The position numbers and the translations under genes are program-made. DNA of 53,430 nt from a virus, in the IMG/VR virus record IMGVR_UViG_3300009177_000049, positions 1-53,430 of that record; one strand, written 5' to 3'. Positions 30,215 through 50,428 of the stretch are shown here, piece by piece (the first letter of the stretch is position 1; the number at the start of each line of letters is the position of its first letter). The notes below the pieces were generated by a model. That model was not told where the DNA came from, did not search any database, and was given only the letters and a program-made list of their open reading frames with translations.

Positions 30215-30222
30215 GGTCTGTC

Positions 30223-32026: not shown

Positions 32027-32027
32027 C

Positions 32028-32309: not shown

Positions 32310-32360
32310 AGCCACTCCTTCCGTTGCAACGTCATCCTGCCGCAGAGGTACGACAGAACA

Positions 32361-32396: not shown

Positions 32397-32436
32397 GATC
32401 GTGGGGCAGCCACCTCACGGTGACTGCCAGAGGACG

Positions 32437-32682
32437 CTAGTCCCCGTACCGACCGAAGCCCAGGTCCACAAGGAGACGATCCTTGTGGGCCCGAGCATGG
32501 CGCTCGGCGCTGCGAACCTGGGCCGAGGATGCTCGGCCGTTCGCATGCTCCAGCCTCACCACTGCAGCATGCGCGAAAGCGTCATGGCTGGCAGTGATGT
32601 GGTTGAGCAACCGAGCATGACGTACGAGCTCAGCCTCCGTGAACGGAGACTGGTCGTAGTCAGTGAACGGGTGGTACGCCAT
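32437..32682 (-). CDS. Unknown 81-residue protein
   Basis: This mostly helical, His/Arg-rich protein includes FTEAELVRHARLLNHITASH, then VRSAERHARAHKDRLLVDLG. ATG 32682 follows a GGAGG-type site (CGGAGGTAACCG). It is isolated between two strong hairpins. Basic helices suggest nucleic-acid contact, with nothing specific. Confidence 0.6.
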   Translation of the reverse strand: MAYHPFTDYDQSPFTEAELVRHARLLNHITASHDAFAHAAVVRLEHANGRASSAQVRSAERHARAHKDRLLVDLGFGRYGD

Positions 32683-32726
32683 CGGTTACCTCCGATGTAG
32701 GTGAGCGGCTGGTCCGCTCGTGACTG

Positions 32727-32770
32727 AGCGACAGCCTGTGTCCACCCCCCGGAGGACACAGGCTGTCGCT
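32727..32770 (-). other. 17-bp perfect intercistronic hairpin
   Basis: AGCGACAGCCTGTGTCC (32727-32743) pairs perfectly with 32754-32770 around a 10-base loop containing a C run. This is the longest uninterrupted stem in the operon. It lies between the 32850 stop and the 32682 start and lacks a U tract. Confidence 0.7.
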
Positions 32771-32849
32771 GATCCCGTGACTCGCTACACATACCGACCC
32801 GGTCACGGTCTATCGGCATGCGGCCCAGCACTCAGATGGCTGGACAGTT

Positions 32850-33101
32850 CTACTGATCCCCGAGGGGATGAAGCGTCAGACCCTGCGGGTCCTGACCGTA
32901 GTAGCCAGACTCGAGGTTGCTCAGCAAGGAGTTCGCCGAACCACCGTCGAGATCGTGGCCATCACTACGCAGATGCCAGATGCACAGGGTGCATCCGTGC
33001 GACTGTGGCATCGCATCGTCACCGATGCTGATGCCACGCCGCAGGAGTTCAGCCACAGCCAGGGCCTCGGACCCCAGCTGGTCACGCAGTTGCTCCGTCA
33101 T
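32850..33101 (-). CDS. Unknown 83-residue protein
   Basis: ATG 33101 overlaps the upstream stop. The product begins MTEQLRDQLGSEALAVAELL and has a Cys/His-containing centre (SHGCTLCIWHLRSDGHD). A Cys-x2-Cys pair with nearby His could bind a metal. The ending (GLTLHPLGDQ) is not diagnostic. Function is unknown. Confidence 0.55.
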   Translation of the reverse strand: MTEQLRDQLGSEALAVAELLRRGISIGDDAMPQSHGCTLCIWHLRSDGHDLDGGSANSLLSNLESGYYGQDPQGLTLHPLGDQ

Positions 33102-33331
33102 GGAACCAGTCCCAACGCTTGACAGTCTCGATACCCACGGGAATGCGGGTACCGCCACGCCTCATCGCATCCGCCGTACGGCTGACGCAACGAGGATCCA
33201 GGGTGGATCGCCGGCGACTGGCTGTTGCTGTCCTTTCCCGACATCACCAGCAGTACGCCAACAATCAGGCAGCAGAGCAGCACGAACCCAGCCACGAACG
33301 TGGCATGGATCCGTGCCGCCTGCTTGGTCAC
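33098..33331 (-). CDS. Small membrane protein with extracytoplasmic Cys-containing tail
   Basis: This 77-residue protein has one transmembrane helix at about 11-30 (TFVAGFVLLCCLIVGVLLVM) after a basic start, then a polar tail with two Cys residues (GGCDEAW; YRDCQAL) that could form a disulphide outside the membrane. It overlaps both neighbours by 4 bases. A membrane-anchored superinfection-exclusion or envelope function would fit the layout. This is speculation. Confidence 0.6.
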   Translation of the reverse strand: MTKQAARIHATFVAGFVLLCCLIVGVLLVMSGKDSNSQSPAIHPGSSLRQPYGGCDEAWRYPHSRGYRDCQALGLVP

Positions 33332-33717
33332 GCCTTGACCCGCTTCCGCGGGTCACCGCTGCGCCTGGCTGCGCTGGCAGCACGAGCAAGCTCATGCTTC
33401 ACCAGCTCAGCGTGCAACGTACCGACGCTGGTCTCGAGGTTGGTCACGGACTCAACCAGTTCGAGGTTGGCAGTTGCCAACGCATCGGAACGCTCATGCC
33501 ATACAGCAGCCTCGGCTTCTGCCTGCTCAAGAGCATGGACAGTGCCGAGCATGTCACGCTCCCACTCCCTGTTGCGGGCGTTGCTCATCGCAACGTCGGA
33601 CAGGAGCTGGACATTGCCCAGTTCGCACTCGTTGAGATCACGCTTCAGCGCGATCACGAACAGTGCGAGCACGGCGATCACAGTCGCCAATGCCATGAAA
33701 CCCAAAGCTTCCAACAT
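33328..33717 (-). CDS. Membrane-anchored coiled-coil protein
   Basis: This 129-residue protein has an N-terminal transmembrane helix (about 2-24: FMALATVIAVLALFVIALK), then a polar coiled coil (ECELGNVQLLSD through HAELVKHELARAAS) and a basic end (RRSGDPRKRVKA). The architecture resembles inner-membrane spanins, but a Gram-positive-type host would not need one. I choose ATG 33717 with GGGAGA upstream over farther in-frame starts, which lie in the structured leader. Function is unknown. Confidence 0.6.
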   Translation of the reverse strand: MLEALGFMALATVIAVLALFVIALKRDLNECELGNVQLLSDVAMSNARNREWERDMLGTVHALEQAEAEAAVWHERSDALATANLELVESVTNLETSVGTLHAELVKHELARAASAARRSGDPRKRVKA

Positions 33718-33740
33718 GAGATCTCCCAATCTCTCTCTCA

Positions 33741-33866
33741 AGATATCGTTAGATATCTCAATCCCTTTACCCCCAAACCAAAAAGGAAATACGTATCCTG
33801 TGGTTACGCATAACCACGGCTCACGCATGAGCCGGCGCTACGCATAGCGACAGCACACACGTGTGC
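33741..33866. promoter_or_regulatory. Cluster of five small hairpins between two leftward genes
   Basis: AGATATC-GTTA-GATATCT lies at 33741-33758. Three contiguous hairpins follow with the same loop: GTGGTTA-CGCA-TAACCAC (33800-33817), GGCTCA-CGCA-TGAGCC (33818-33833) and CGCTA-CGCA-TAGCG (33836-33849). CACACGTGTG (33856-33865) is a perfect palindrome. On leftward RNA the repeated loop reads UGCG, a UNCG-type tetraloop. Stems differ while the loop is constant. Possible roles: RNA leader control, terminator, or single-strand hairpin promoter for a phage polymerase. Confidence 0.85.
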
Positions 33867-33874
33867 AAGTGGTG

Positions 33875-34231
33875 TTACTCCACACCTAGATCATCGAATG
33901 AGATAGACACGCCTCTCGATGCATACATGGCTACCATCGCTTCGGTGTTGGCCCTCGCTTGACGAGGATCAACGCCTCGCTCGATGAAAGCCTCATACTC
34001 TCGCTGAAGATCAGCGAGTACCTGAGCTCGCACATACTTCGAGTCAGGCAAAGCGTTGTGACGGACCGGACCAATGCTGGCCGGACTCAACATCCCAAGG
34101 TCCACCACATGTGTGGTGAGTACGTGGTCCACGTACTTGGACAGAGTCCAGCCCTTCAGACGTGCAGCTGTCTCGAGAGACGAGCGCACGTCGGCGGCAA
34201 CACGAGCAGTGATCGTTGTGTTCATAGTCAT
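33875..34231 (-). CDS. Ribbon-helix-helix DNA-binding regulator
   Basis: This 118-residue protein has an Arc/MetJ-like N-terminus: TTITARVAADVRSSLETAAR then LKGWTLSKYVDHVLTTHV (strand, helix, helix). The C-terminal half is helical (YVRAQVLADLQREYEAFIER) and may mediate oligomerisation. ATG 34231 (or 34225) lies 8 bases from a perfect palindrome CGTACAC-GAT-GTGTACG and beside the repeat array centred at 34397. Inferred: an autoregulated repressor or early/late switch. It is the most upstream gene of the leftward operon. Confidence 0.8.
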   Translation of the reverse strand: MTMNTTITARVAADVRSSLETAARLKGWTLSKYVDHVLTTHVVDLGMLSPASIGPVRHNALPDSKYVRAQVLADLQREYEAFIERGVDPRQARANTEAMVAMYASRGVSISFDDLGVE

Positions 34232-34239
34232 GGACACAA

Positions 34240-34256
34240 CGTACACGATGTGTACG
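34240..34256. promoter_or_regulatory. Probable autoregulatory operator of the RHH gene
   Basis: CGTACAC and GTGTACG flank GAT in a perfect inverted repeat, 9-25 bases upstream of ATG 34231. RHH proteins bind such short symmetric sites and commonly repress their own gene. Binding is inferred, not shown. Confidence 0.65.
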
Positions 34257-34287
34257 AATGCTGCAATGAATCGCCGGCAAACAGGGA

Positions 34288-34506
34288 TGTAGACACCCCA
34301 TGTAGACACCCTGTGTACAACTGCAAACGTGCAGGTCAGACGGCACATGGTGCATGTAGACAGCCTTCACATACCAATCTCACCAGAAGGTGTACAACAT
34401 ACACCTAGGGATGAGGTTAGATACGAGAAGGTGTCTACACACCACATGCACCGCCTGACCTGCACAGATGCAGTTGTACACAGGGTGACTACACCAGGTG
34501 TCTACA
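34288..34506. repeat. Mirror-symmetric array, centre 34397, related to the array at 12060
   Basis: Every part has its mirror at the exact expected base around 34397. TGTAGACACC 34288 pairs with 34497. TGTAGACACC 34301 pairs with GGTGACTACA 34484. CTGTGTACAACTGCA 34311-34325 pairs with 34469-34483. CAGGTCAG 34332 pairs with CTGACCTG 34455. TGTAGACAGC 34355 pairs with GGTGTCTACA 34430. The centre is AGGTGTA-CAACA-TACACCT (34388-34406). It shares TGTAGACACC and CAGGTCAG with the first array. Probably a protein-bound control region or replication origin. Confidence 0.9.
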
Positions 34507-34855
34507 CACCGCCGGCCCAATCAGCTCGGTGCCCTCGCTGCCCAGTGAACCGAGCACAGCTCGAGACACAGCTACCGCTGTGACAATGCTGATACGCAAT
34601 GCATTGCGATAAGAATATGATCGAGCGTGGCAAACCACATTATGACTGTGTCATAAAATCCGTCATGCTCTAACAACCACATTGCGCATGCACACCTTGT
34701 CTTGTGACAATCCCTCGCCCAGTAGCCTGGGCGCAAACGTCACGAGACTAGGTGAAAGTATGTTGTGTCATGTTGTGTCTTCTCATCAACGCATACGCAT
34801 TGTGAAAAAAAGAGCATGACTCCCAGCATAAGCTGGAAGCCACACTCGATCCCAA
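34507..34855. promoter_or_regulatory. AT-richer intergenic region with palindromes
   Basis: I see no supportable gene here. It holds CGCAATGCATTGCG (34595-34608), TTATGAC-TGT-GTCATAA (34640-34656), a tandem ATGTTGTGTC (34760-34779), ACGCATACGCAT (34789-34800), and a weak promoter-like TTGTGA...TAGCCT (34702-34728). The base composition is visibly richer in A+T than the surrounding genes, as is common at regulatory or origin sites. Confidence 0.6.
34805..34841 (-). terminator. Probable terminator of the 34856-35089 gene
   Basis: On leftward RNA, GGCUUCCAGC and GCUGGGAGUC (34841-34818) form a 10-bp stem with two G-U pairs and a UUAU loop. A U7 run follows after six bases (A7 at 34805-34811). 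It begins 15 bases after the gene's stop. Confidence 0.6.
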
Positions 34856-35089
34856 CTACTTCGTGTAGTTGTCCAGCATACGCTGATAAGCGTCGATGAT
34901 CTTCTGGTCCGAACCAGCAGACTTCATCTCCTCGATTGCCTTACGCAACCGATCCATGTTGTCCATGACCTGACCATCGACAACAACCGACTTCTCACGA
35001 ATAGTCGACGCCATCAGCGAGCGCATCATCCCATTCATGGGATCCATGCCAGCGATAACGCTAGCCTTGAGCGCATCTCCAAAATCCAT
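34856..35089 (-). CDS. Unknown 77-residue early-region protein
   Basis: ATG 35089 has TAGGAG 6 bases upstream. The product begins MDFGDALKASVIAGMDPMNG and is Met-rich and helical, with DRLRKAIEEMKSAGSDQ near its end. It is a single-gene unit with its own AT-rich upstream region and its own terminator, outside the main leftward operon. This suggests separate, probably early, expression. No family is recognised. Confidence 0.65.
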   Translation of the reverse strand: MDFGDALKASVIAGMDPMNGMMRSLMASTIREKSVVVDGQVMDNMDRLRKAIEEMKSAGSDQKIIDAYQRMLDNYTK

Positions 35090-36191: not shown

Positions 36192-36198
36192 CGAGTAG

Positions 36199-36228: not shown

Positions 36229-36235
36229 AGTAGTG

Positions 36236-39200
36236 GTGGGCAAGTACGACTCGAGTGCGTTGCAGCCGTGGCTGGGTCAGTCTCAGAACCCTGCTGCCCC
36301 CGAGGGGATGCAGCAGGCTGCGCGGGCCGGTGGTGGTGTGGCCGCCGGCGTCCCGATGTACGACTCGTCCAAGCTGGGTGCGTGGGTGACGGACCCGGAG
36401 ATCGGGTACACGGGTGCAGCGCAGTCCTGGTACACGGGTGCGAACTTCGACGGCACGAACAACGGGTATGACAACCAGTTCGTGAGTGACTACATGTCCA
36501 AGTGGAACAAGGCGTTGGAGGAGGGGACGGCGAACACGTACTTCGAGCAGGAGCATGCGACGGGAATCGTCACCTGGGATCACACAGGTACCGATGGGAC
36601 GCAGTTCAAGTACGGGGATGTCTACGTCAACGGCGACAAGGTCGCCAACATGTACGACAAGAAGGACGGCGGGTTCGACGAGAACACCGCGAACCTTGCG
36701 ATGTCCACGTGGACGTTGAGCAAGGACCAGAAGGCGCACGCGTTCTCGGCCTCCGACCCGTTGCAGCACCTGGGTCGTGAGGTTCAGGCGCAGCGGGAGA
36801 AGGACAACGTCGAGATCCCGCAGCAGCTGAAGGCGATGGAGTTCAACGCGGACGTGAAGGACACGGCGCACCAGTTCGAGGAGGGAACGACCGATGAGGC
36901 GATCATCCTGGGTGGTGCCGCGGGTGGCGCGGCGTTGGGTACAGGTGTCGGTGCGGCGATTGGCTCGACGTTCTTCGGTGTGGGTGCTGCGGTGGGTGCC
37001 CCGGTGGGTGCCGGCATCGGTGCGCTGGTCGGTGGCGTCGGCGCGTTCCTGAACAAGGACAGTCTGACGGAGCAGGCTGCGAGGGCGTACGAGATCACGG
37101 CGCTGTCCACGGACCAGTACGGCTCCGGTGCCGGGATCTCGACCGGTGTCCAGCAGTGGGGTGGTTTCGCGGGCCGGTTGATCTCCCCGCTGCAGAACAC
37201 CGAGCAGGGGCTGTACGACTGGTCCCAGGGTGATGTGGGTGATGGCGAGTCGGCGTTCTACCGGACCGACAAGTCCGGGAAGTCGACGACGCCGGCGTGG
37301 GTGAAGGTGGCCGATGTCGGTGCTGCGCTCGGTGACGGTGCGCTGCAGTTCGCGTCCCCGATCGGTCGCGGGCTGTACATGGCACAGATGGGTTCCACTG
37401 TCGCAGGGGAGACGGCGGAGCTGGCGCTGACCGGTGGCTCCCAGTTCGACTACAACAAGGGCGGGTTCGACAACGTCTTCAAGGACGAGGCGGGGCACTT
37501 CAGCCCGTCCCAGGGTGCGGCTGGGATTGCGAAGATCGGTGTCGATGTGGCGCAGATCGGTCTCGCCAGAGGGCTGTTGACGAAGTCGTGGGCTGGTCGT
37601 GAGGCTGCGGGGCTCAGCCAGATGGGCGCCGCACCGGGAGCCGTAGGCACTCTCGGTACGGCTGTCTCGGGTAGGGCGGTGGCCCGTGATGTGCTGCCGA
37701 CGTGGGCCGGTGGAAGGACTGCGGCGCAGAAGGCTGCGCTCGAGGCCGGCGGCAAGGAGGAGATCGAGTCGGGCTACCGGTACATCACCGACGATGTCGG
37801 GCAGGTGGTCGGCAAGAGGTACCGCACGATCTCCCTGCTGGCTCCGTCCGAGGCGATCTCGAGTCTGAGCACGCGGGTGATCGCGTTGCGCGGGAAGGAG
37901 GTCGGCCAGGGTGCGTTGAAGGCCGACGACTTCTACCGGGCCGCACAGTCGATGGCCCAGGGTGAGCGGCGGTTCACCACGGCGCTGGTGAACGGGTTCG
38001 GCGAGGGCACCGAGGAGGTGATCCAGTCTGCGCTCGAGTCGTACTCCCACGGTCACGGCGTGGGCAGCATGCAGGACATGGTGAACTCGGGGCTCTACGG
38101 GGCTGCCGGTGGTGTCGGGATGGGTCTGGGCATCAACGCCCACTCCCCGACGGCGGACGAGAAGCTGGACGGTCAGGTGAAGATCGCTCACTACTTCCAG
38201 ACCGGTGGCGAGGTGCTCTCCGATGAGGCGTTGGCGTCGATGACGCCGACGGAGAAGCGTGCGAAGGCGCAGATGGGGAAGCTTGAGCGGGAGACCGCGA
38301 AGGCTGCGTTCACCAAGTACGCCGACGACCGGGCTGCGGACTTCACCGCAGGTGTCGCAGGCGTGAACAAGGTGGTCGACGCGATCAACACGTCCAGGTC
38401 GGAGTCGTTGAAGAACTCCGCGCCGCACACCGACCAGCCGTTCGTCATCACCCAGATCGAGGATGCCGGCCAGGTCGATGCGAACGGGCAGCTGCTGCGC
38501 GGCAGCGTCCCCTCCGATGCGGTGGTCTCCTCCGGTGCCCAGCTGATGCGGAACTTCGGCAACCGGATGCGTGGTATCACCGAGCAGCTGACGCTGCTGA
38601 AGAACAACGAGGTGCTGAAGCAGGCCGACCTCGACAAGAAGCCCGCCGACGAGGGGCTGCAGAACGACCTGGCGAAGATCCAGCAGCAGACCAAGCAGAT
38701 CAACGAGATGATCCGGCTGGGTCAGGCGTTGGGTGCCGAGATCGACGACCGGGTGGGTCGCATGTACGACCCGAACGCCTCGGTTGCGGCCCGTGCGGCG
38801 GAGACCGAGGGGCTGAACCAGTTCCTCCGGGACGCGTTCAACCGGCGTGCCGGTGATGTGAACGGTGTCCCGGTGACCACCGACGAGGAGCGGATGGCGT
38901 TGGCGCGCGCCGTGTCCCAGGTGGTGACCAGGGACCCGCAGGACCAGTCGGGCTCCTACCAGGTGCTGGTGCCGCAGGCGTCACTGAAGCTGACGGTGTC
39001 GAACTCCGACAACGTCCTGGAGATCAGCCACGCGATCCTTCCGGCGATCCGCGGCGACTACGACGGCGACAAGATCAGGACCCAGAACCAGCTGCTGCTG
39101 GACGAGGACATGTTTGTGTCGGCTCGTGCTGGTATGCATTTCCTCGGGGCCGGCACCAGCGTGAACGTGAAGGCCCCGAAGTACGAGAAGTGGGTGGTGC

Positions 39201-42200
39201 AGTACATCCAGGAGGCGTTGACGTCCACGGAGCCGGCGCTGGTGAACGCCGCCACGGGTGCGATGACGTCGGTCACCGAGGCGATCCGCAACCGGTATGA
39301 GGCGATCATCGGTGACGAGATCCTCGATCCGGTGTTCGCCAAGTTCTTCGCTGCGGTGCGTACCGGTGACGGTGACGCCCGCAGCGTCCTGATGGACGGG
39401 CTGCTCGAGGTGGCCGACGGTCCGATCAACACGTTCGCCAGGGGCAACCTGAGCAACGAGTGGCTGTGGATGGACCAGCTGGTGCGGGCCCAGTTCCAGG
39501 CGTTCCAGGAGGACTACGCCTCCTACCGGGCGATGCTCGGCCCGACACCGGGGACCGTGAAGAAGGGCCGCCCGGTGAAGCGTGTGTCCGAGGCACGGGA
39601 GCGCCGGGCCGCACGGTCCGCCACCACCGGTCAGACCATCGGGAACTGGCTGGCCGGCGACCTGATGTTCCGCAAGTTCCAGAAGCTCCACTACACCTCC
39701 CTGTCCGCCTCCGTGCAGTCGTCCGCGAACCCGACGCAGCGTGCCGAGCTGTATGCGCTCGCCTCCGAGTACGAGCTGCTGTCGGCTATGGCGACCCAGT
39801 CCGAGCTGGACCGGGTGCATGGGGTAGACGAGATCACGGCACGGGTGATCGCCCAGCTGAAGGCGCTCGCGGACAACGCCACCGACCTGGATCCGGCGCT
39901 GTCGCAGACCCAGGCGATGGCGGTGGTGGCGAACGTCGCGGTCCTCGACTACGACATCGACTCCGACGGCAACGTGACGACCACCGGACGTGAGATCACG
40001 TTGGCGCAGATGCTGCTGAAGCAGGAGCTGCGCCGGGACCGTGTCGCCAAGGACGCGATCTTCGAGATCTCACCGGAGCTGCAGGCCAAGCACGCCCGGC
40101 TGCGGGCGATGACGAAGCCCGACGGCCAGGGCGTCAAGGGCTCCGGCCTGAACGCGCAGCGGGCGTTCGTCGAGGTGTTCGGAGCGTTCCAGCTGTTCAC
40201 GCTGATCGGTGACGCAGCCGGACTGATGGGACCCCACATCAGTGTGGAGCAGTACGTCAGGTTCTACACCGCCAAGGACGAGGGCGAGCGGAAGTCCGAG
40301 GACTACAAGCTGAAGAACGAGGCCGCCTACCTGGGACGCGAGTCGGCGGCAAACATGCCGTACTCGGTGGCCGAGGTCGCAGCCGGCGACGTGTCCCCGT
40401 ACCGCAGCGTCATCGACTCGATCATCTCGGTGGGCCACAACCGCATCACCCTCGACAAGAAGATCGCTACCGGCAACGACTACAACGCGCACCACCTGAA
40501 CGGCGAGTTCTCCGATGCGCACTACCGGGCCTCGGAGGCGTTCAAGAACTCGCACAAGGATGTCCGGGAGGCGCTGTTCAAGTTCTCCGAGCTGTCCGGG
40601 CGTCGTGTCGACGAGCTCACCCTCGACATGGTGCAGCGGATGCTGGACCAGAACCCGACGTTCGCGGAGAAGGTGATGGCGCTGATCCCGGACGCCGCCG
40701 CGAACGCCGTCTTCGAGCGTCGCGGTGACGACCTGTACATCGCCAACTGGGTCTACAAGATGTTCACCATCACCAACGCCGACGAGGCGGAGATGCACTA
40801 CTGGCGCAACGTGATGCTGGCCCAGTGGGAGTCACTGGGCATGCACGCCCGTACCGAGAAGGATGCGGACGGTCACCAGGGTCGCCGGTACAACAAGCTC
40901 GAGCGCCGCATGTTCAAGATCATGTACGACCTGTCTCCGCAGATGCAGCAAGACGGCGGGCTGCTGATGACGAAGTTCATGCACGAGCTCCAGAACGCCA
41001 AGAACCTGGAGCAGTTCCTCCGCTGGGTGAACACCACGCCGGGGATCCGTGGCAACCAGGCACCCATCGTCGGCTGGTACGACGACTCCGCCGCCTTCGA
41101 TGCGGACAAGGCGAACGGTGGCTGGTCGACCGGCATGAAGGGCGTGACCCAGCGTGAGGCGATCGCCTCCCTCGAGGTCGGGGCCCAGTACCTGAAGAAG
41201 GACCTGGTCGAGGAGCAGAACATCCAGCGGTCCGACAACCAGGTGTACCTCGCCATCGAGCGGGTCCTGAAGTCCGACGCCGGCGCACCCAATGTCACGG
41301 CCACCACCGAGGACCGCAGGCTCTACGACGCGTTCGTGGCGTCGCTGAAGAACTCCCGCGAGATGAACGTGGGGCTCGGGCCGCAGGCGATGATGTACCA
41401 GGTCATCGGAGCGGTCCGCGGGTTCTACCCGAAGGCCCACACCAAGGGCGAGAACCCCGACAACGTGGACCCGGCTGGTGCGTTCGACGCACAGCGCGAC
41501 GCCTACGACTACGTCACGAACTACGAGCGGTTCAAGGCGTCCATGACGGCGGTGAACCTCGACGCGATCAGCGGCAACATGTCGCAGCTCGCCAAGGACG
41601 GCGTCGTCACGATGGACGACGACGGACGCCAGGTCGAGTGGGAGATGCCGGTCGACTCCGAGGGCAACCCGACAGCAGAGTCGGTGGCCAAGGCGCTGGC
41701 GCTGTTCTCCAACCCCGACACCAGGCCGATGGCCAGGTCCGTGCTGTTCCCGCAGGTGATGGAGCGTGGCCCAGAAGGCAGGCTCACCACCCAGATGCTG
41801 GTCGGCAAGGACCTGAAGTCGCTGCTCGAGGGCGACCACTACAAGAAGATGTTCGCCCACGACAACAGCATCGACAACGACTCCGCGATGCGTTACTGCG
41901 CGATGCTGGAAGCCACCGCCCGTAACCACAAGGGCCACTTCTCGGTGCAGCGGATCGTCAACGACATCGTGATCGCGGAGACCAGTGGTGCGAACCACAC
42001 GCTGTCCACCTCCGAGATCGAGCGTGCCGCGCAGCGGGCGTTCCGCACGGTGGCGAAGATCGTGCAGGACGCCGCGGCCATCGCCTCGGTCCCCGACGGC
42101 ACCGGGGACGCCACCTTGAAGCAGGTGATGTCCGAGGTTCATGCGGCACGCCGGATCCAGCGCACCGCAGGGCTGCTGGGCTTCGGTGCCCGGCCCGGTG

Positions 42201-45200
42201 AGGACGTCAAGGAGGCAGCCGCGCGGTTCGCCTACACCGATCTTGCCCTGGACCAGCTGGTGGCACAGCGTCGCGGGGAGATGAACGACGAGATCACCCA
42301 GATCGAGGCGAAGCTCGTGCCCGGCCTGGACATCCACGAGGTCGAGAAGATCGAGCGTGAGACGTTGGGCGCCCGTGCCGACCTTGAAAAGTTCGAGGCC
42401 CGTGTCGAGCTGCTGCGCTCCGACGACCCAGCCGGCCAGGCCGTCGACATGTTCTCCTTCCACTCCGATCCGTTGACCGAGACCGACCGTCAGCGGGAGA
42501 TCATCCAGTACATCATGTCCGCGCCGGACAAGTTCCGCCGGAAGTCGCAGTCCACCATCCAGATCATGATGAAGCTGTCCGGCCAGCTCGAGGACAAGTC
42601 CCGTTCCGGGCAGGTGGACCTGTCGGCTTCGGAGTGGAACCACCTGTCGCGTGCCACCATCACCGTGTTCCTCGACGACATCGTGTCGATGGGCTCCGGT
42701 GGCATCTCGGTCTCCCCGTACCCGGACGCGACCAGGCCCGACAACACCCGCTACTACGACACGTCGTACGCCTACCTGGCCGACACGCTGCTGGACCCGA
42801 CGAAGCCGCTGCTGCTGGCCGGTCGGGACATGCACAGGTGGGCCGGGCTGCAGGGTGACATCCCGCCCAGCCCGACCGAGCTGAAGAAGACCATCGAGCT
42901 GAACCTGTACCCCGACTTCCGGTACGGCCCGTGGACCGGGGACATCCCACGAGCCTCCATCGAGGCCAACCAGCGGCTCGACTCCGCCGCCGCAAAGCCG
43001 GTGATCGGGATGACCGGCAACGCGCCGAAGCGTCAGGCAGCGAAGTCGGCTGCCACCAGGCGCACCTTCCGGGTACCGGGTGCCGAGCTGCTGTCGAAGG
43101 TCACGCTGCAGGCCAGCGACCTGAACAGGTCGCTGTTCGACGACGTCGAGGTGACCCATCCCGGTGACCGTGCGGTCGCGCGACCACTGGCACAGCTGAA
43201 CAACCGCTTCGCTGCCCGCGTGATGCTGCGCCACTACCAGCCGGGAACCTACCTCGACGCGACACCCATCGACCTGCTGGCCTCGGACCTGAACCTCGGC
43301 CACGTCTTCCACACCAACGACAACGCGGTGGCCTCCGGCTACAAGGAGATCCACCTGGACCGGCTGAAGGTCGCGCTCGAAGCCTCCGGTGTCGACCCGA
43401 GTGACGTGGCCGGCATTGACATCGAGTTCTTCCATCCCGACATGCAGCCGGTCGAGACCCAGGAGGAGTCCGACAAGGGCCGCACCTGGTACAACAACCT
43501 GTTCTTCGAGGGCACCAGCTTCAAGCGTGACTCGGATCGGGCCGAGTCCCTGAACGCCACGCTCTGGTTCACCGAAGGCTCCATCAACCCGGTGATGCAG
43601 GCGTGGGGCCTGGACGCCTCGAAGCTCGGACGCTCCGCCATCGAGGTCATCGAGACGATGACCCACGCCGAGCGCAAGGCCATCGAGAACGACTGGGCCA
43701 CCGACCTGTCCCATGTGCTGCGGATGAAGACCCAGGAGATGCTGACCAAGCAGCTCGGTCTCGGTGACCCCGAGAAGGGCTCGAAGGGGATGCTCGAGCC
43801 GGAGTTCTACAACGCCGTCTACAAGGACATGAAGCTTCAGCACCTGGTGGTCGGCAAGGCACAGGGCACAGGCGACCGGCTCGTGTGGACCGCCGAGCAG
43901 GTGATCGCCTGGCAGCAGGCCAACCCCGGTGTCGCGCTCCCCATCGACGACGCCAAGCTGTACATGCCCTCCGACACGGTGCTGAACTCGATGCTCGGTG
44001 AGCAGGGCACCCAGGGTGCCACCCGCGTCTTCGACGACGTGCTGTCCGCCGACCTGTCCCAGGTCCCCGCGTACCGGGGCGTGTCGACCAAGATGCTGGA
44101 GAACTTCAAGCACGGGCTGAACGGCGAGTCGAAGCCGTTGCCGGAGACCAGGATCGCCAACCGTGCCCGGCAGCAGACGCTGCAGACCCGTGCCTACCTC
44201 GACGAGAAGACCCGCAACGCCTACGAGGCGAAGATCAGGTACCTCGCCGAGAAGCGCGAGGAGATCTGGGACGACCGCGCCAACTACAACGGACAGACCG
44301 GTGAGGGCGGCTGGAACCCGCGCACCAACCTGGGTCGTGCGTTGCAGACAGCGGACCTGATGCTGCGTGCCGAGAACATCTCGATGGACTGGACGGCAGG
44401 CGGGCTGCCGTTCTTCGGCTCCCGCAAGAACAAGGACATGGAGCTGTCCAAGATGCTGCTCCACGAGCTCGAGGCGGCACTCGAGGTCAAGGGCAGCCGG
44501 TCCGGCTGGATCTTCCGCGAGGACCAGGCGTCCGACGCGAACGCAGGGCTGATCTCCGGGGTCACCCTGTCCACGTCCTCGGGTGCGAAGCGGATCGCAC
44601 CCGGCGACCTGGTCGTCGTCGAGCTCGACTCGTTCCGTGGTAACGCCGCGAAGATGCGGGAGCGTCTGGACTACATCGCGGACCAGGGTGCCACCATCGT
44701 CCTCGGTGCCACCGACGGTGAGGCTGACATGCGTGTCGAGGCCACCCAGTTCATGGAGTCCATCGACTACATCAGGATGGCCGGCTCGGGACACGTCTAC
44801 CAGCCTGCGATCACCACACCCCGGTTCCAGAACCAGCGGGCCCTGATCTCCTCGCTCACCGCCACTCGTGGCGTGTCACCCCGTTCGCACCTGGCGATCT
44901 TCAACGTCCAGGGGCTCAACGTCGAAGAAGGCTCGCTGTGGGTCGACTTCAAGAACCCGCGTCTGCACGCCATCGCGGAGACCCTGAACCTGGTGCCGAC
45001 CAACTACCTGGCCGGGTTCAACGTCCCGGTCGACGAGATGACCGACGACCGGATCCACAAGACCCAGATCACACGGGTCCGCAACCAGGTGCTCGGCTTC
45101 AAGAACGACCCCGAGGGCCGACAGATGCTGCGTGACATGGCGCACGGTCCCGAGACCGAGCAGGGCAAGAAGCTCACACCCGCCGAGCGTGCCCACCTCG

Positions 45201-48200
45201 ATACCGAGTTCGACTTCTACTTCGACCGGATGATCGACCGGCTCGAGCTGCACGCCGGCTCCGTCCTGCCCCAGGCCGGAGACGACTTCGGCACCGGGGA
45301 CATGATCCCGCTGGTCGGACCCGGCGACACCGTGCTGCTGTACCGGCACGGACACGAGGCGCCGGACTGGGACAAGGTGATGACACAGAAGCGCGTCACC
45401 CGGCCCGCCAAGCACGAGCCGGCGAACATGGCCGTGTTCTCCTCGACCCGCAACCCGAACGCTACATCCCACACAGGGACCGTCGTGGAGTTCAACCCGC
45501 GCTCCAACTACGGCCTGTCCGTCCGGCTCGAGATCGACCTACAGGTTCTCGGTGACAAGAAGGTCCTGGAGTGGAACGGGCAGAAGTACGAGCTCACCGC
45601 CCGTCCCGACCGCATCCAGTTCCCCACCTACCAGGGCAAGGAGCACGGCTTCCTCACCAACTGGGACATCGACGGCGTCGGCAGCCTCGATGACGCCATG
45701 AGCAAGGAGTCGACCGACGGGATGATCGTCGACCACCAGTCGGCGTTCAAGTTCCTCGGCATCGACTTCACCGACGACGTCGCCACCTTCCTCGGTGTCG
45801 ACGCCACCACAGCCGTCGACTTCCTGAAGCTGATCGCAGCCCAGGCTCCGAGGATCCAGGTCACCGCAGCCGACGAGATCCTCAACTCCGAGCGGATCAC
45901 CGAGGCCCTGCGCAGCCAGCTCGACGGCTTCGCCCTCACCAACGCCGAGACAGTCGACCCGTCGTGGGTCGACAACATGGCGGACCCCGCATCGGTGGAG
46001 GCGAAGATCGCCACCTCGATGATCGTCTACCTGATGACGCCCGGTGCTCGTGTGGGGGACGTGCTGAAGTCCGGTGGCTTCAACGACAGGACCAGCAGCA
46101 TCGACCACAAGTCGGTCGAGATGCCGATTCTTTTCACCCAGGTCTTCGACAACTCCGGGCTGGACTCCGATCTCCGCAACGAGATCAACGAGCGGATCAA
46201 CTCCCAGTTCTACAACCCGAACCAGGACGGCACCGGCTACTCGATGTCTAAGTCGTGGCGGTTCGAGTCCCGCCACGCCGACCCGAGGAAGAACCAGGTA
46301 GGCGTCCTGCAGTTCGCCGAGGCCCACTCCGCCGGGGACAACCCCGTCATCAACGGGATGTCGTTCGACGAGGCGACCCGGTCGAACGTCAGCCAGCACT
46401 CTGCTGCCATCGCCTACCAGGCGACCGGTGCGCTGACCGCACACTCCTACGAGGTGGCGAAGGCCCAGCTGTTCTCCTCCACCACCATCGAGCCGCACGC
46501 CCGCGACACCGAGGACGGCGGGCTGTGGCGGATGCTGACCGGCATCCCGTTCGAGGACCGTCGCGCCGGATCCTTCTGGAAGGCGGCGTCGCCGGCTGAG
46601 GCCGAGCGCATCGACCTCGCCCGTGACGCCATCATCCAGGATCGGGTCGAGATCAAGCAGCTCGACGAGAACGGATGGACCGCTACACAGCGCACCGAGT
46701 ACAACGCCGCCGCGGTCAGTGTCATGCAGACCCTCGGGCTCGACCCGCTGCAGGTGAAGCTCGTCGACTACTGGGTCCGGCAGACACTCGGGATGCCGCA
46801 CGGCACCGACGCCAACGGCGACGACGTCGGTAAGGTCAGCGGCAGCGCAGCGATCGAAGCGGTCAAGGACATCGCCTGGAACGTGAACCACAACTACCTC
46901 CCTGTCGTCGGAGCCGAGGTGCCGCTGCTCCACGTCCACGACCTGCAGGCGATCTTCCGTGCCAACCAGCACCGGTCCCCACAGTGGCAGCCGAAGGCCG
47001 GGCTCGAGGACAACAACATCAAGGCCGGGACCTGGGACGAGTGGGTCAAGACATCGCTCGGTGGCGCGTTCACCTCCGACCACCTGTTCGACCCGCTGTA
47101 CCTGCTCGCCCTCGACGGGTACATGCACACCTACCAGTCGGCCACCCGCGACCTCCTCGACCTGCCGGTGTCGATGGACGTGCTGGTCACACAGAACCTG
47201 ATGGACGAGACCACGAACCGGCTGTTCGTCTCGGTCTCCGACGAGCAGCAGCTGATCGCCACCGACCCGGTGACCCTCGACCTGCAGCGCGCATCCCTCG
47301 ACAACCTGATCGGTGGACAGCGGGTATCGGGCCGGCTCGTAGCGAAAGCCGCTCCGGTCTCCGAGGTCGCCAAGCGTCGTGACGCACGACGCAAGTGGCG
47401 CAAGGAGAACGGGATCCCGCTGCCACTGGACGTCTCGATGAAGGACTTCCTGAAGAACGGCGGAACCTTCACCGACCGGGCCACCACCGTCAACGGCCTG
47501 TACCGCGCCCTCATCAACCTCCGAGTCGGTACCGCGCTGCTCAACCCTCAGCTCTACGTCTCGATGGGACCCGAGCAGTTCGTCCGAGGCGTGCTCGACC
47601 GCACCGCAAACCTGCTCACCATGCAGTCCACCGCGGTAAGTGTTGGACGGAAGGGCCAGGTCAAGGGCCTCGCCGGTCGGCAGGCCCGGCTCACCGAGCG
47701 CCTGGCCGACACCACCCTCGGCGCCGGCCTGTCCCGGCTCGGGCTCGAGGCCGCGTACCGCCCGGACCAGCTGGTCAAGCTGAACAAGCTGTACACGGTG
47801 ATGGGCCAGCGCAACGACTTCAAGTCGATGGTCTACAAGGAGCTGTTCTTCCTGCGCCCGCACGAGCCCGGTGTCGGGAAGGCCGAGCGTTGGCTTGAGA
47901 ACTACGCCAAGCTCGGCACCAAGGTGCAGGACCCGACGTGGGGTACCCGCGCCAACACGCTGGCACGCCGCTACATGGAGGCTGCGCTGTCGCACATCAT
48001 GGCGACCCCGACGATGAACCAGCTCAGCGTCGACCGGCTGATCGCGGAGATGGCCACCAGCCCGCAGTTCTTGAAGCAGAACTTCCCGACGGCACACGAG
48101 GCCGGGATGAACTCCGTCGCCCAGCTGCGCTCGTTGAAGCCGACACCGCTGTCGCTCACGTTGCGCGGGATCTACGAGCCGCTGTCGGAGTCGCCGAACA

Positions 48201-50428
48201 TGGGACTCGCGTTCCTCGGCAACGTGGTGCTGAAGATGCCGATGCTGTTCAGCGGCTACGCCGTCAACGTGGCGACCACGATCCTCGGGCTGCAGGGCCT
48301 CTCGGACATGACGGCCATGTTCCTCGAGGGACGCAAGAAGGGACCGAACTCGCTGTTCGGTCGAGTATCGGCCAAGATCCGCGGCGTCCAGTTCGACCCG
48401 GAGATGGACGCCACCTTCGACATGTCGTCGGTCCTGGAAGGCGTCGACCTGTCACGCTCGTTCATCCGTGGCAGCCTCACTCACACCGGCCTCTTCGCCT
48501 TCGGCATGATGGCCGGTGGTCTCGGGCTGTCCGGTGAGGACGACGAGACCAAGAAGCGCCGGCGCCTGGCTGCTCTGCAGGGAGCACCGGTCATCTACGA
48601 CCCGCGTCGCATCGAGAACGACTTCCGCAACGCCGACGCCATGTTCGTCGACTGGCTGCCGCCGGGCATCGCGTCCATGTTCCGGGTTACCACCGACGAG
48701 GCGCCTGGCGGTGCCCGCTCGATGGTGCAGCTGAACTGGGTGCTGAAGCAGTTCATCTCCCCGATCATGGGGATGGAGAAGTTCTACGAGACCGGCGACT
48801 TCCGCAACGTCGGCTGGGGGTTCGAGGACGCGCTCGGAGCGTTCCCGCTCATCAACGCCAACACCTGGGACGACGCGTTCCAGACCGCAGCCGAGCTCGC
48901 GCAGATGGCAGACGATCAGTCGAAGCTCGGTGGAGCCCACAACATGCCGATCGCAGCAGGCTTCCTCACCAACGCTGTCGGCGTCTACGAGAAGATGCTG
49001 TTCGAGAACGCCTTCATCAACCAGATCTACGTGGCACGCGACGAGTACGACCGTGACCCGTTCGTACTGCCGCTGCGCAACGCCAGTCGCGAGCTGCAGG
49101 GCGACGCCGAAGGCAACCCGCGTCCACAGAACCTGTCGATGGAGTCCTACATCGACCCCGAGACAGGGCAGATCAAGCAGGGCTACCAGACTCGCAGCGA
49201 CAGCGAGGCCACACTCCACGCCTTCACCGAGAACCGCTTCTCCCTGGCCGTCATGTCGTCGCTGTTCGCCAAGATGACAGGCGGTACGCCCGACTACTTC
49301 CGCACGCAGATGCCGGAGAAGCTGCGGGAGATCGAGAAGCAGCCGATGACCAAGCAGCGGGCCGAGGCCATCGTCCGCTCCCTGTCACAGGCAGCCGGCG
49401 GGACCGAGGCGCTGTCCCTGGACGAGCTGATCTACAAGATCAAGGGCGACGCGATGGCGTCGAAGAACTGGAACGTCTACAACAACGCCGACAAGATCGC
49501 CCGCGCCAACTACCACCCCGAGATGCTCGAGCCGCTGTCGGTCCTCGACGCCCAGGGACACGAGGTGCTGACCAAGGCAGGCGCCCGCGGCATCTACCAG
49601 GGCCTCGCCAAGGGCTCGGTGAAGATCGGGGACGACAGCCTCCAAGGCATCTTCATCCCACGAGACATGCGCGTGCAGATCCAGAAGGAGTGGACCGAGG
49701 AGCTGATCCAGGAGGGCGTCGACATGGGCCTGGACCAGACGAAGGCCACGTCCCGGATGAAGCGCATCTGGTACGGCCCGCTGTCCAACCCCGACGCCCT
49801 CGGCATCGGAGACATCCTCTGGCACAAGGACATCTCGTATGACAAGTCGGTGGTCTACAAGCAGCTGAACACGACCTACGTCATGGGCCCCGACGGTCGT
49901 CCGTGGGCCACCGGCTTCAAGCGTGCCGGCGTGCTCGGCGCGTTTGGTCTGAAGCCATACCAAGAGGCGTACGTCTCCGAGCAGTCGGCCACCGGCAACG
50001 ACTCCCTGCTCAACACCACCGACCTCGTCAACGGTATGAACACAGGGCTGCGCGCGCTTCAGCTCGTCGACAAGTCCTCCTACATCCCGACCGATGTGGA
50101 GATCGGGAAGTCCATCGAGAAGGCCATCGCCGACGCTGCGAACAAGACGTACACCCCGCAGCAGCCGTACTCGAACTCCAACGGCAACGGCTACAGCCGC
50201 TTCCCGTACCACCGCTACTCCGGCTACGGGCGTCGGAGCTACGGCGGTGGCGGCTACAGCAGCAGCGGCTACAGCCAGTACAACAAGATGTACGCACTAC
50301 CCGGTGCGCGGGCCCCGTTCGGGGACGACATCCCGTTCATCAACACGTCGAGTCCTTTCATCCGTCGAGAGGACATCCACCGTGAGCGGGTCTGGTCCGA
50401 GCGAGGAAGGCTGAAGCAGTGGCAGTGA
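36236..50428 (+). CDS. Giant virion protein with an RNA polymerase beta'-like catalytic motif
   Basis: This 4730-residue single reading frame covers about a quarter of the window. GTG 36236 is 5 bases after GAGGAG; GTG 36233 is possible. Residues 226-272 form a glycine-zipper hydrophobic segment. At 899-945 come R899-D-P901, I-S-H932 and D941-Y-D-G-D945. This matches the order in the beta' double-psi barrel (R-x-P, I-x-L-H, D-F-D-G-D), where the three Asp bind catalytic Mg2+. Hydrophobic segments lie at 3988-4022 and 4082-4101. A Tyr/Gly/Ser-rich stretch (4644-4690) precedes the end. Its position before portal suggests a virion protein, and the membrane-like segments suggest ejection. Inferred: a packaged single-chain RNA polymerase. 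A second barrel is not securely seen. No other RNA polymerase is encoded. Confidence 0.8.
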   Translation: MGKYDSSALQPWLGQSQNPAAPEGMQQAARAGGGVAAGVPMYDSSKLGAWVTDPEIGYTGAAQSWYTGANFDGTNNGYDNQFVSDYMSKWNKALEEGTANTYFEQEHATGIVTWDHTGTDGTQFKYGDVYVNGDKVANMYDKKDGGFDENTANLAMSTWTLSKDQKAHAFSASDPLQHLGREVQAQREKDNVEIPQQLKAMEFNADVKDTAHQFEEGTTDEAIILGGAAGGAALGTGVGAAIGSTFFGVGAAVGAPVGAGIGALVGGVGAFLNKDSLTEQAARAYEITALSTDQYGSGAGISTGVQQWGGFAGRLISPLQNTEQGLYDWSQGDVGDGESAFYRTDKSGKSTTPAWVKVADVGAALGDGALQFASPIGRGLYMAQMGSTVAGETAELALTGGSQFDYNKGGFDNVFKDEAGHFSPSQGAAGIAKIGVDVAQIGLARGLLTKSWAGREAAGLSQMGAAPGAVGTLGTAVSGRAVARDVLPTWAGGRTAAQKAALEAGGKEEIESGYRYITDDVGQVVGKRYRTISLLAPSEAISSLSTRVIALRGKEVGQGALKADDFYRAAQSMAQGERRFTTALVNGFGEGTEEVIQSALESYSHGHGVGSMQDMVNSGLYGAAGGVGMGLGINAHSPTADEKLDGQVKIAHYFQTGGEVLSDEALASMTPTEKRAKAQMGKLERETAKAAFTKYADDRAADFTAGVAGVNKVVDAINTSRSESLKNSAPHTDQPFVITQIEDAGQVDANGQLLRGSVPSDAVVSSGAQLMRNFGNRMRGITEQLTLLKNNEVLKQADLDKKPADEGLQNDLAKIQQQTKQINEMIRLGQALGAEIDDRVGRMYDPNASVAARAAETEGLNQFLRDAFNRRAGDVNGVPVTTDEERMALARAVSQVVTRDPQDQSGSYQVLVPQASLKLTVSNSDNVLEISHAILPAIRGDYDGDKIRTQNQLLLDEDMFVSARAGMHFLGAGTSVNVKAPKYEKWVVQYIQEALTSTEPALVNAATGAMTSVTEAIRNRYEAIIGDEILDPVFAKFFAAVRTGDGDARSVLMDGLLEVADGPINTFARGNLSNEWLWMDQLVRAQFQAFQEDYASYRAMLGPTPGTVKKGRPVKRVSEARERRAARSATTGQTIGNWLAGDLMFRKFQKLHYTSLSASVQSSANPTQRAELYALASEYELLSAMATQSELDRVHGVDEITARVIAQLKALADNATDLDPALSQTQAMAVVANVAVLDYDIDSDGNVTTTGREITLAQMLLKQELRRDRVAKDAIFEISPELQAKHARLRAMTKPDGQGVKGSGLNAQRAFVEVFGAFQLFTLIGDAAGLMGPHISVEQYVRFYTAKDEGERKSEDYKLKNEAAYLGRESAANMPYSVAEVAAGDVSPYRSVIDSIISVGHNRITLDKKIATGNDYNAHHLNGEFSDAHYRASEAFKNSHKDVREALFKFSELSGRRVDELTLDMVQRMLDQNPTFAEKVMALIPDAAANAVFERRGDDLYIANWVYKMFTITNADEAEMHYWRNVMLAQWESLGMHARTEKDADGHQGRRYNKLERRMFKIMYDLSPQMQQDGGLLMTKFMHELQNAKNLEQFLRWVNTTPGIRGNQAPIVGWYDDSAAFDADKANGGWSTGMKGVTQREAIASLEVGAQYLKKDLVEEQNIQRSDNQVYLAIERVLKSDAGAPNVTATTEDRRLYDAFVASLKNSREMNVGLGPQAMMYQVIGAVRGFYPKAHTKGENPDNVDPAGAFDAQRDAYDYVTNYERFKASMTAVNLDAISGNMSQLAKDGVVTMDDDGRQVEWEMPVDSEGNPTAESVAKALALFSNPDTRPMARSVLFPQVMERGPEGRLTTQMLVGKDLKSLLEGDHYKKMFAHDNSIDNDSAMRYCAMLEATARNHKGHFSVQRIVNDIVIAETSGANHTLSTSEIERAAQRAFRTVAKIVQDAAAIASVPDGTGDATLKQVMSEVHAARRIQRTAGLLGFGARPGEDVKEAAARFAYTDLALDQLVAQRRGEMNDEITQIEAKLVPGLDIHEVEKIERETLGARADLEKFEARVELLRSDDPAGQAVDMFSFHSDPLTETDRQREIIQYIMSAPDKFRRKSQSTIQIMMKLSGQLEDKSRSGQVDLSASEWNHLSRATITVFLDDIVSMGSGGISVSPYPDATRPDNTRYYDTSYAYLADTLLDPTKPLLLAGRDMHRWAGLQGDIPPSPTELKKTIELNLYPDFRYGPWTGDIPRASIEANQRLDSAAAKPVIGMTGNAPKRQAAKSAATRRTFRVPGAELLSKVTLQASDLNRSLFDDVEVTHPGDRAVARPLAQLNNRFAARVMLRHYQPGTYLDATPIDLLASDLNLGHVFHTNDNAVASGYKEIHLDRLKVALEASGVDPSDVAGIDIEFFHPDMQPVETQEESDKGRTWYNNLFFEGTSFKRDSDRAESLNATLWFTEGSINPVMQAWGLDASKLGRSAIEVIETMTHAERKAIENDWATDLSHVLRMKTQEMLTKQLGLGDPEKGSKGMLEPEFYNAVYKDMKLQHLVVGKAQGTGDRLVWTAEQVIAWQQANPGVALPIDDAKLYMPSDTVLNSMLGEQGTQGATRVFDDVLSADLSQVPAYRGVSTKMLENFKHGLNGESKPLPETRIANRARQQTLQTRAYLDEKTRNAYEAKIRYLAEKREEIWDDRANYNGQTGEGGWNPRTNLGRALQTADLMLRAENISMDWTAGGLPFFGSRKNKDMELSKMLLHELEAALEVKGSRSGWIFREDQASDANAGLISGVTLSTSSGAKRIAPGDLVVVELDSFRGNAAKMRERLDYIADQGATIVLGATDGEADMRVEATQFMESIDYIRMAGSGHVYQPAITTPRFQNQRALISSLTATRGVSPRSHLAIFNVQGLNVEEGSLWVDFKNPRLHAIAETLNLVPTNYLAGFNVPVDEMTDDRIHKTQITRVRNQVLGFKNDPEGRQMLRDMAHGPETEQGKKLTPAERAHLDTEFDFYFDRMIDRLELHAGSVLPQAGDDFGTGDMIPLVGPGDTVLLYRHGHEAPDWDKVMTQKRVTRPAKHEPANMAVFSSTRNPNATSHTGTVVEFNPRSNYGLSVRLEIDLQVLGDKKVLEWNGQKYELTARPDRIQFPTYQGKEHGFLTNWDIDGVGSLDDAMSKESTDGMIVDHQSAFKFLGIDFTDDVATFLGVDATTAVDFLKLIAAQAPRIQVTAADEILNSERITEALRSQLDGFALTNAETVDPSWVDNMADPASVEAKIATSMIVYLMTPGARVGDVLKSGGFNDRTSSIDHKSVEMPILFTQVFDNSGLDSDLRNEINERINSQFYNPNQDGTGYSMSKSWRFESRHADPRKNQVGVLQFAEAHSAGDNPVINGMSFDEATRSNVSQHSAAIAYQATGALTAHSYEVAKAQLFSSTTIEPHARDTEDGGLWRMLTGIPFEDRRAGSFWKAASPAEAERIDLARDAIIQDRVEIKQLDENGWTATQRTEYNAAAVSVMQTLGLDPLQVKLVDYWVRQTLGMPHGTDANGDDVGKVSGSAAIEAVKDIAWNVNHNYLPVVGAEVPLLHVHDLQAIFRANQHRSPQWQPKAGLEDNNIKAGTWDEWVKTSLGGAFTSDHLFDPLYLLALDGYMHTYQSATRDLLDLPVSMDVLVTQNLMDETTNRLFVSVSDEQQLIATDPVTLDLQRASLDNLIGGQRVSGRLVAKAAPVSEVAKRRDARRKWRKENGIPLPLDVSMKDFLKNGGTFTDRATTVNGLYRALINLRVGTALLNPQLYVSMGPEQFVRGVLDRTANLLTMQSTAVSVGRKGQVKGLAGRQARLTERLADTTLGAGLSRLGLEAAYRPDQLVKLNKLYTVMGQRNDFKSMVYKELFFLRPHEPGVGKAERWLENYAKLGTKVQDPTWGTRANTLARRYMEAALSHIMATPTMNQLSVDRLIAEMATSPQFLKQNFPTAHEAGMNSVAQLRSLKPTPLSLTLRGIYEPLSESPNMGLAFLGNVVLKMPMLFSGYAVNVATTILGLQGLSDMTAMFLEGRKKGPNSLFGRVSAKIRGVQFDPEMDATFDMSSVLEGVDLSRSFIRGSLTHTGLFAFGMMAGGLGLSGEDDETKKRRRLAALQGAPVIYDPRRIENDFRNADAMFVDWLPPGIASMFRVTTDEAPGGARSMVQLNWVLKQFISPIMGMEKFYETGDFRNVGWGFEDALGAFPLINANTWDDAFQTAAELAQMADDQSKLGGAHNMPIAAGFLTNAVGVYEKMLFENAFINQIYVARDEYDRDPFVLPLRNASRELQGDAEGNPRPQNLSMESYIDPETGQIKQGYQTRSDSEATLHAFTENRFSLAVMSSLFAKMTGGTPDYFRTQMPEKLREIEKQPMTKQRAEAIVRSLSQAAGGTEALSLDELIYKIKGDAMASKNWNVYNNADKIARANYHPEMLEPLSVLDAQGHEVLTKAGARGIYQGLAKGSVKIGDDSLQGIFIPRDMRVQIQKEWTEELIQEGVDMGLDQTKATSRMKRIWYGPLSNPDALGIGDILWHKDISYDKSVVYKQLNTTYVMGPDGRPWATGFKRAGVLGAFGLKPYQEAYVSEQSATGNDSLLNTTDLVNGMNTGLRALQLVDKSSYIPTDVEIGKSIEKAIADAANKTYTPQQPYSNSNGNGYSRFPYHRYSGYGRRSYGGGGYSSSGYSQYNKMYALPGARAPFGDDIPFINTSSPFIRREDIHRERVWSERGRLKQWQ

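Follow-up and report, generated by a model that had tools for sequence, protein, structure and literature searches.

A covarying tandem hairpin array upstream of the early operon of phages whose giant protein resembles RNA polymerase

RESULTS

Hairpin array and gene neighborhood in the window

The window, meaning the whole stretch of DNA analyzed here, is IMG/VR virus record IMGVR_UViG_3300009177_000049 from a soil phage and is 53,430 bases long. Its relevant features are as follows.

33328..33717, minus strand: first gene of the leftward early operon, 129 aa, just downstream of the array
33741..33758, minus strand: additional hairpin AGATATC-GTTA-GATATCT, past the array and before the start codon
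33763..33774, plus strand: pyrimidine tract CCCTTTACCCCC (a purine tract on the leftward strand), with like tracts in relatives
33778..33792, plus strand: AT-rich block CCAAAAAGGAAATAC, a member of a CCAAAAGTAGT-like motif, the same in the nearest relative (L002)
33800..33817, plus strand: hairpin unit 1, GTGGTTA-CGCA-TAACCAC
33817..33834, plus strand: hairpin unit 2, CGGCTCA-CGCA-TGAGCCG, base 33817 being common to unit 1
33836..33849, plus strand: hairpin unit 3, CGCTA-CGCA-TAGCG
33853..33866, plus strand: hairpin unit 4, GCACA-CACG-TGTGC, continuing the 17-nt register
33875-34231, minus strand: leftward ORF upstream of the array, ribbon-helix-helix-like by eye
36233..50428, plus strand: giant gene, 4731 aa, encoding a large protein with an embedded predicted two-barrel RNA polymerase
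38363..39565, plus strand: predicted beta'-like catalytic domain, about aa 711-1111, with D942-Y-D-G-D946 (AlphaFold2, Foldseek, VIA-align)
44780..46192, plus strand: predicted beta-like domain, modelled aa 2850-3320, with invariant K3109 (AlphaFold2, Foldseek, VIA-align)

An earlier note on this DNA had described three tandem hairpins with a common CGCA loop. All three are present, and they are the only ones with a CGCA or TGCG loop among the 147 hairpins with four-nucleotide loops and stems of at least 5 that a scan of the window returned. A fourth hairpin extends the array to 33800-33866; the loops lie at an exact 17-nt period, with the ACGCAT cores of units 1 to 3 beginning at 33806, 33823, and 33840. 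The core of unit 2, GGCTCA/CGCA/TGAGCC, occupies 33818-33833, and one C-G pair extends its stem to 33817-33834. The loop is identical (CGCA) in three of the four units and is CACG in unit 4. Dinucleotide shuffles of the window (n = 100) produced a total of 2 chains of at least three hairpins at 16- to 18-nt spacing, and neighboring hairpins with the same loop at the array spacing never arose. The window itself contains one other chain of three hairpins, near 1095, which has unrelated loops and lies inside coding sequence of the Gly-X-Y type. Collagen-like Gly-X-Y coding repeats are found at about 1050-1140 and at 35712-36191, just ahead of the giant gene.

The array lies upstream of the first leftward gene at a distance of no more than about 200 nt, and the leftward genes further on encode an AAA ATPase, an exonuclease, DNA polymerase A, a helicase, a DUF5906/primase-like protein, and a prim-pol. 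The AT-rich block CCAAAAAGGAAATAC, found once in the window when up to 3 mismatches are allowed, is a possible core promoter or start region of this operon, and the pyrimidine tract sits on the operon side of the AT-rich 11-mer. The hairpin at 33741-33758, whose place is taken by other stems in several relatives, may belong to the 5' leader of the early mRNA. A search of 28000-38000 for sigma-70-like promoters gave none above chance. The terminator scan, which was at chance level overall, listed no rho-independent terminator at the array, and this reading of the array was rejected. A tRNA or a known RNA family was rejected as well: no tRNA was found, and an Rfam 15 search of 33600-35300 gave 0 matches up to an E value of 1. 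The ORF at 33875-34231 has no match in Pfam or PHROGs; because it is leftward and lies upstream of the array, leftward RNA could cross the array in the window.

The repeat TGTAGACACC is found in both orientations in two clusters, 11948-12182 and 34288-34506, the latter adjoining the array, with 20 copies in the window at no more than 1 mismatch against 2.7 expected; the clusters are possible origin or operator sites. Other repeats fill the same gap in the Burro and Akoni relatives, of the GGTAACG type and as CCATGNGAGACATGG palindromes (L005 17550-17800, L011 6200-6340). The sign of the GC skew switches at about 35 kb in the window. Before the giant gene there is a TATATATA stretch and then a G-run (window 35196-35231, L005 18518-18620, L006 18581-18680), followed in Burro and MissAmericana by a near-identical CACTCAGAAAAGTTCCCGTAAAACCGGAAACC, a candidate late promoter region.

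The array in phages with related giant proteins

DNA of 32000-35800 showed no similarity to phage records, so a protein search with the giant was needed. Using its first 1600 aa as the query, relatives were identified in 33 of 50,697 phage records (32 Microbacterium phages and 1 Arthrobacter phage), with identity below 60% throughout. The 129-aa protein of the first gene gave no confirmed homologues, and no relatives were found among bacterial genome contigs. A pattern of three ACGCAT motifs, sought in viral contigs, returned the contig of L002 (as L003) and L004, which was rejected as an array relative, being a simple repeat. Aligned giants, used as the query of a further search, yielded 20 loci; another search gave 19, many of them the same contigs.

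The nearest relative is contig IMGVR_UViG_3300024249_000020 (L002), at 78% in the best tblastn segment and 82% over aa 1-1600. In the slots of units 1 and 2 it has GCACTCA-CGCA-TGAGTGC and CGACTCA-CGCA-TGAGTCG, so that both arms differ from those of the window and the loop is kept; the slot of unit 4 reads GCCCG-AGCA-CGGGC. The CGCA loops of units 1 to 3 are all retained, as is a flanking block of about 30 nt. Two named phages show the same arrangement at a period of about 17 nt: four hairpins with loops AGCA, AGCA, AGCA, and AGC in Burro, and three with loops AGCC, AGCC, and AGCT in MissAmericana.

An array was present in all 26 phages with enough upstream DNA, Microbacterium and Arthrobacter phages included, and in all 26 it sits in the gap that precedes the leftward early operon, at the end nearer the operon. 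These are the window, 12 named phages, and 13 further IMG/VR contigs, the survey having taken in 12 of the 33 giant-bearing phage records; L020, L022, L029, and L032, whose loci extend upstream too little or not at all, were left out of the count. The array of L046 was detected by a relaxed scan only, and that of L033 is weak (11 of 20 positions paired).

On the operon side of the array, and on that side only, 20 of 23 phages have an 11-mer near CCAAAAGTAGT at a distance of 9 to 13 nt. It scores 11.67 bits, compared with a maximum of 7.70 in shuffled controls. In Phractured and Mazun the program took another site, and CAAAGAACATT is visible by eye 10 nt from the array; in L046 the 11-mer is 22 nt away. 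The best motif on the right side of the array scores 9.19 bits, and its distance is not fixed.

Stems covary and loops are nearly constant within a phage

Pairing was counted in 21 nonredundant phages (84 units, 420 loop-proximal positions). The near-identical rows of Ashton, Araxxi, and Astartes were removed before the pairing, mismatch, motif, and picking-control counts; L046 and L055 stand outside the pairing counts and inside the 11-mer motif count. For each array the first unit was picked by eye; for every later unit three offsets were compared and the best was taken, a procedure that the random-place control mimics. Watson-Crick pairs occupy 357 of the 420 positions. Shuffling the 3' arms within slots gave a mean of 125.5 pairs (maximum, 167), and picking units in this way at random positions in these loci gave a mean of 196.9 (maximum, 218; 300 trials). 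The 56 units with five perfect pairs contain 47 distinct 5-bp stems.

Over the 84 units the loop has A in first position in 55, G in second in 73, C in third in 77, and C or A in fourth in 69. Loops are nearly constant inside one phage and differ between phages (CGCA, AGCA, AGCC), mostly as NGCN; a three-nucleotide AGC loop is found only in unit 4 of Burrovirus phages. Units are spaced by 17 nt in 40 of 63 cases, by 18 in 13, and by 16 in 10. The earlier note took the structure with its loop as the common feature of the three hairpins, and the relatives bear this out in that stems vary with pairing kept; its expectation of a constant loop holds, nearly, within a phage and not between phages. 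We conclude that the hairpin structure and the loop, not the stem sequence, are the conserved feature. A further proposal, that on the leftward RNA the loop is a UNCG-type tetraloop, was rejected: UGCG arises only from CGCA, whereas AGCA gives UGCU and AGCC gives GGCU, and the reading fails because the loops drift between phages.

Mismatches and folding energies

Mismatches in the stems, counted on the plus strand at positions 1 to 6, were G.A in 39 cases, G.T in 23, A.C in 10, C.T in 8, and identical letters in 13; the ratio of G.T to A.C (23 to 10) is biased by the scoring used. The share of G.A in the sum of G.A and C.T was 0.83, compared with a mean of 0.56 and a maximum of 0.66 in 500 shuffles. 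Tandem 5'-GA-3'/3'-AG-5' mismatches, which form sheared pairs that are stable in DNA and RNA alike, were seen in 10 units of 8 phages (L018, L028, Phractured, Akoni, Mazun, Fede, L033 with three units, and L036), and the mirror C.T form was not found in array stems. The tandem count by itself is within the shuffle range (10 versus a mean of 3.9 and a maximum of 10), and therefore only the G.A-to-C.T share was used. The units are not independent, because related phages have such mismatch features in common. Read from the sequences in this way, the bias points to selection on the plus strand, which serves as template for the leftward operon, instead of on the leftward RNA of the tetraloop proposal.

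Folding energies do not single out one strand in the 21 arrays. With RNA parameters the leftward strand was more stable in 14 and the plus strand in 6, and with DNA parameters the arrays divided evenly (11 versus 10).

The giant protein resembles a two-barrel RNA polymerase

Searches of the giant with Pfam, PHROGs, and PF00623, and with phmmer and hmmsearch against PDB sequences, identified no polymerase, and the assignment therefore rests on a motif and on structure models. The motif, DxDGD, occurs without exception in the 20 aligned giants (and in 10 of 10 in an overlapping first set), as DYDGD, DFDGD, DWDGD, DNDGD, or DHDGD, and an invariant RxP is found about 40 residues ahead of it. An AlphaFold2 model of aa 400-1590 (pLDDT 66.6, pTM 0.39) gave a bacterial RNA polymerase as the top Foldseek match (E value, 0.013), with RNA polymerase in 6 of the first 20 rows. 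VIA-align with the same model placed bacterial RNA polymerase in all 50 rows listed, with Z scores of 9.6 to 10.2 and, in the best row, an rmsd of 3.8 over 211 at Z 10.2; model residues of about 312-712 align to about 344-650 of the E. coli protein, around the beta' DFDGD at 460-464.

A hunt for a second barrel pointed to a conserved stretch near aa 3010-3165. The model of aa 2850-3320 (pLDDT 76.7, pTM 0.53) matched RNA polymerase in all 50 rows listed by Foldseek, with a best E value of 2.8e-3, the matched chains being C (bacterial) or of B type (eukaryotic, archaeal). From custom and from the aligned ranges, we take chains D and J to be beta' and chains C and B to be beta or RPB2. All entries listed by VIA-align for this model contain RNA polymerase, at Z scores of only 4.4 to 5.4.

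Against a polymerase stand the weak profile-profile scores and the Z of at best 5.4 for the second domain. In hhalign, RxP and DFDGD are in register with E. coli beta', weakly (P 0.087); the second domain aligned weakly with E. coli beta (P 0.042) and was misaligned; P23-45 gp96 gave a P of 0.008 and gp66 no alignment. The models make the giant a probable two-barrel RNA polymerase, in which a beta'-like domain comes first and a beta-like domain follows about 2000 residues later, an order that depends on the second, beta-like barrel being correct.

Residues 211-268 of the giant are glycine-rich, match DUF6861 (E value, 8.7e-07), and are perhaps membrane inserting. The giant is annotated as a tape measure protein in NC_048860, NC_048801, and PQ184795, although PMC7302621, in the portion consulted, reports the Microbacterium relatives to be podoviruses. 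The same portion describes an approximately 250-kDa virion-associated protein in Burro virions, presumably gp27, the giant homologue, and calls the role of the giant proteins unclear and without similarity to the N4 virion RNA polymerase. A term search of the available text of PMC12243512 and PMC13064087 gave no mention of RNA polymerase. Titles and the beginnings of abstracts yielded no literature in which hairpin promoters or an RNA polymerase are linked to these phages; an earlier naming is possible in the survey of Supplementary Data 4 of PMC10770324.

DISCUSSION

Comparison with known systems

The closest parallel to the array is the set of early promoters P1 to P3 of phage N4, on which the parts of the papers at hand report small hairpins with a conserved loop and free stem bases so long as they pair (PMC4496689, PMC12633501). 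There, nonconserved stem bases are unimportant provided that the hairpin still forms, and it is the hairpin of the template strand that is active (PMC4496689); the stem has 5 to 7 bp and the loop 3 nt, and the start lies about 11 nt from the loop center (PMC4496689, PMC12633501). In both cases the hairpins lie upstream of early genes in a phage with a giant protein, injected in N4 and presumably here. The template-strand orientation may be common to both: the position fits and the mismatch bias indicates that strand, with RNA folding energies leaning the opposite way. Most stems here, at 5 to 8 bp, fit N4. The array differs in that N4 promoters have a single hairpin with a 3-nt loop, compared with three or four tandem units at 17 nt and mostly 4-nt NGCN loops. 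The polymerases differ too: that of N4 is T7-like and single subunit, whereas the modelled domains of the giant match two-barrel RNA polymerase subunits. The earlier note had raised an N4-type link between the site and the giant protein. The resemblance of the giant to RNA polymerase makes such a link far more plausible; a polymerase of the N4 kind is the part that did not hold.

For the protein, the nearest likeness is Thermus phage P23-45 gp96, a giant virion protein of 5002 aa whose two-barrel polymerase was found by the same DxDGD motif (PMC10770324, in the part consulted), located at 779. That polymerase is fused to a giant tape measure protein; the phages studied here differ in being podophages. 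The part consulted implies the order DPBB-B and then DPBB-A for QDE-1, gp66, gp64, and gp96 (PMC10770324); the giants would instead have the beta'-like domain before the beta-like one, about 2000 aa apart. The crAss-like phage phi14:2 gp66, described there as a single-chain two-barrel virion polymerase, is a further likeness (PMC10770324), although gp66 lacks the DxDGD string and gave no active-site alignment with the profile of the giants.

A proposed promoter and its rivals

Since the array is kept in all 26 phages and the giant resembles RNA polymerase, the hairpins may be a docking site that starts the infection program. Specifically, the array would be a template-strand hairpin promoter or polymerase-loading site read by an injected two-barrel virion RNA polymerase, a reading to which we give about an even chance. 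The giant virion protein would enter the cell together with the phage DNA, and each unit would fold back as a small hairpin on the single-stranded or supercoiled plus strand. The polymerase would recognize the hairpin shape and the NGCN loop, contact the AT-rich block some 10 nt away, and start the early (replication) operon leftward; stem sequences would be free while pairing is kept, and the loop would coevolve with the polymerase of each lineage. We infer hairpin formation in the DNA, binding by the giant polymerase, the start site, and a role for the four copies. On our best reading, by analogy, the system mirrors the promoter logic of N4, yet is not homologous to it. Several findings count against a promoter: the number of hairpins and the loop size differ from those of N4; the promoter of the giant-fused P23-45 virion polymerase is an AT-rich motif, with no hairpin mentioned in the consulted part of PMC10770324; RNA folding favors the leftward strand in 14 of 21 arrays; leftward RNA from the ORF at 33875-34231 could cross the array; and the iteron-like repeats beside the array would suit an origin too.

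There are two serious rivals. The array could be part of the early leftward mRNA, in its 5' untranslated region, and act as RNA hairpins, for stability, for antitermination, or for binding of a phage protein. The put sites of HK022 are a precedent, stem-loops in tandem that act as RNA close to where an early phage operon begins; unlike them, the array has four short units and a strand signal for the template strand. Its distance of at most about 200 nt from the first gene, the second hairpin closer to the start codon, the upstream leftward ORF, and the RNA folding energies are all in line with such a leader. The excess of G.A (39) over C.T (8) favors the plus strand, however, as these mismatches would be C.U on the leftward RNA; the Rfam search gave no match, no sigma-70-like promoter above chance was seen in 28000-38000, and the loops fall outside any fixed RNA tetraloop family. 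We consider a leader unlikely, though worth keeping in view. Plus-strand hairpins could alternatively serve as a single-strand initiation site for the prim-pol or the primase/helicase, forming an origin with the neighboring repeats. The G4 origin and RSF1010 ssi are strand-specific DNA hairpins for single-strand initiation, and they differ from the array in that it is tandem, at 17 nt, and tied to the early operon. The TGTAGACACC repeats that adjoin the array and recur at 11948-12182, the GGTAACG-like repeats beside it in Burro and Akoni, the skew change near 35 kb, and the prim-pol and DUF5906/primase-like genes of the operon would agree with an origin. Yet the conserved motif at fixed distance is on the operon side and not on the repeat side, the repeats vary between phages while the array stays, and the skew also shifts with gene direction; an origin seems to us quite improbable.

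The mismatch signal for the plus strand would also be expected if that strand acted as RNA, in a late-transcript leader or a small RNA. This we regard as very improbable, given that no rightward gene begins within about 1.6 kb in the window, that in annotated phages the array and the giant gene are separated by a leftward gene, and that no rightward promoter motif was recognized. Tandem palindromes at regular spacing upstream of an operon could equally be ordinary double-stranded operators of a repressor, but a dimeric operator would keep its half-sites, and here the arms differ by unit and by phage (47 distinct 5-bp stems in 56 units), so that operators are the remotest of the readings considered.

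Implications

The 13-kb giant gene makes up a quarter of these genomes, and the role of its product, called unclear in print, was still called elusive in March 2026 (PMC7302621 and PMC13069448, in the parts consulted). A polymerase assignment would explain this gene and supply a testable cis site. If the hairpins are the promoter, the 26 natural arrays are a ready mutational series; if they are not, they constitute a strongly covarying element of another function. Taken whole, the proposal amounts to a new transcription start system, in which a two-barrel polymerase of reversed order within a giant injected protein would use tandem template-strand DNA hairpins as its promoter, and we advance it tentatively, as something short of an even bet. 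If it is true, the loop and the polymerase coevolve lineage by lineage, perhaps with as many hairpins as injected polymerase copies. In that case hairpin promoters would have two separate origins, on polymerase folds that are unrelated, and recognition of DNA shape would have evolved independently on a polymerase fold of the cellular type.
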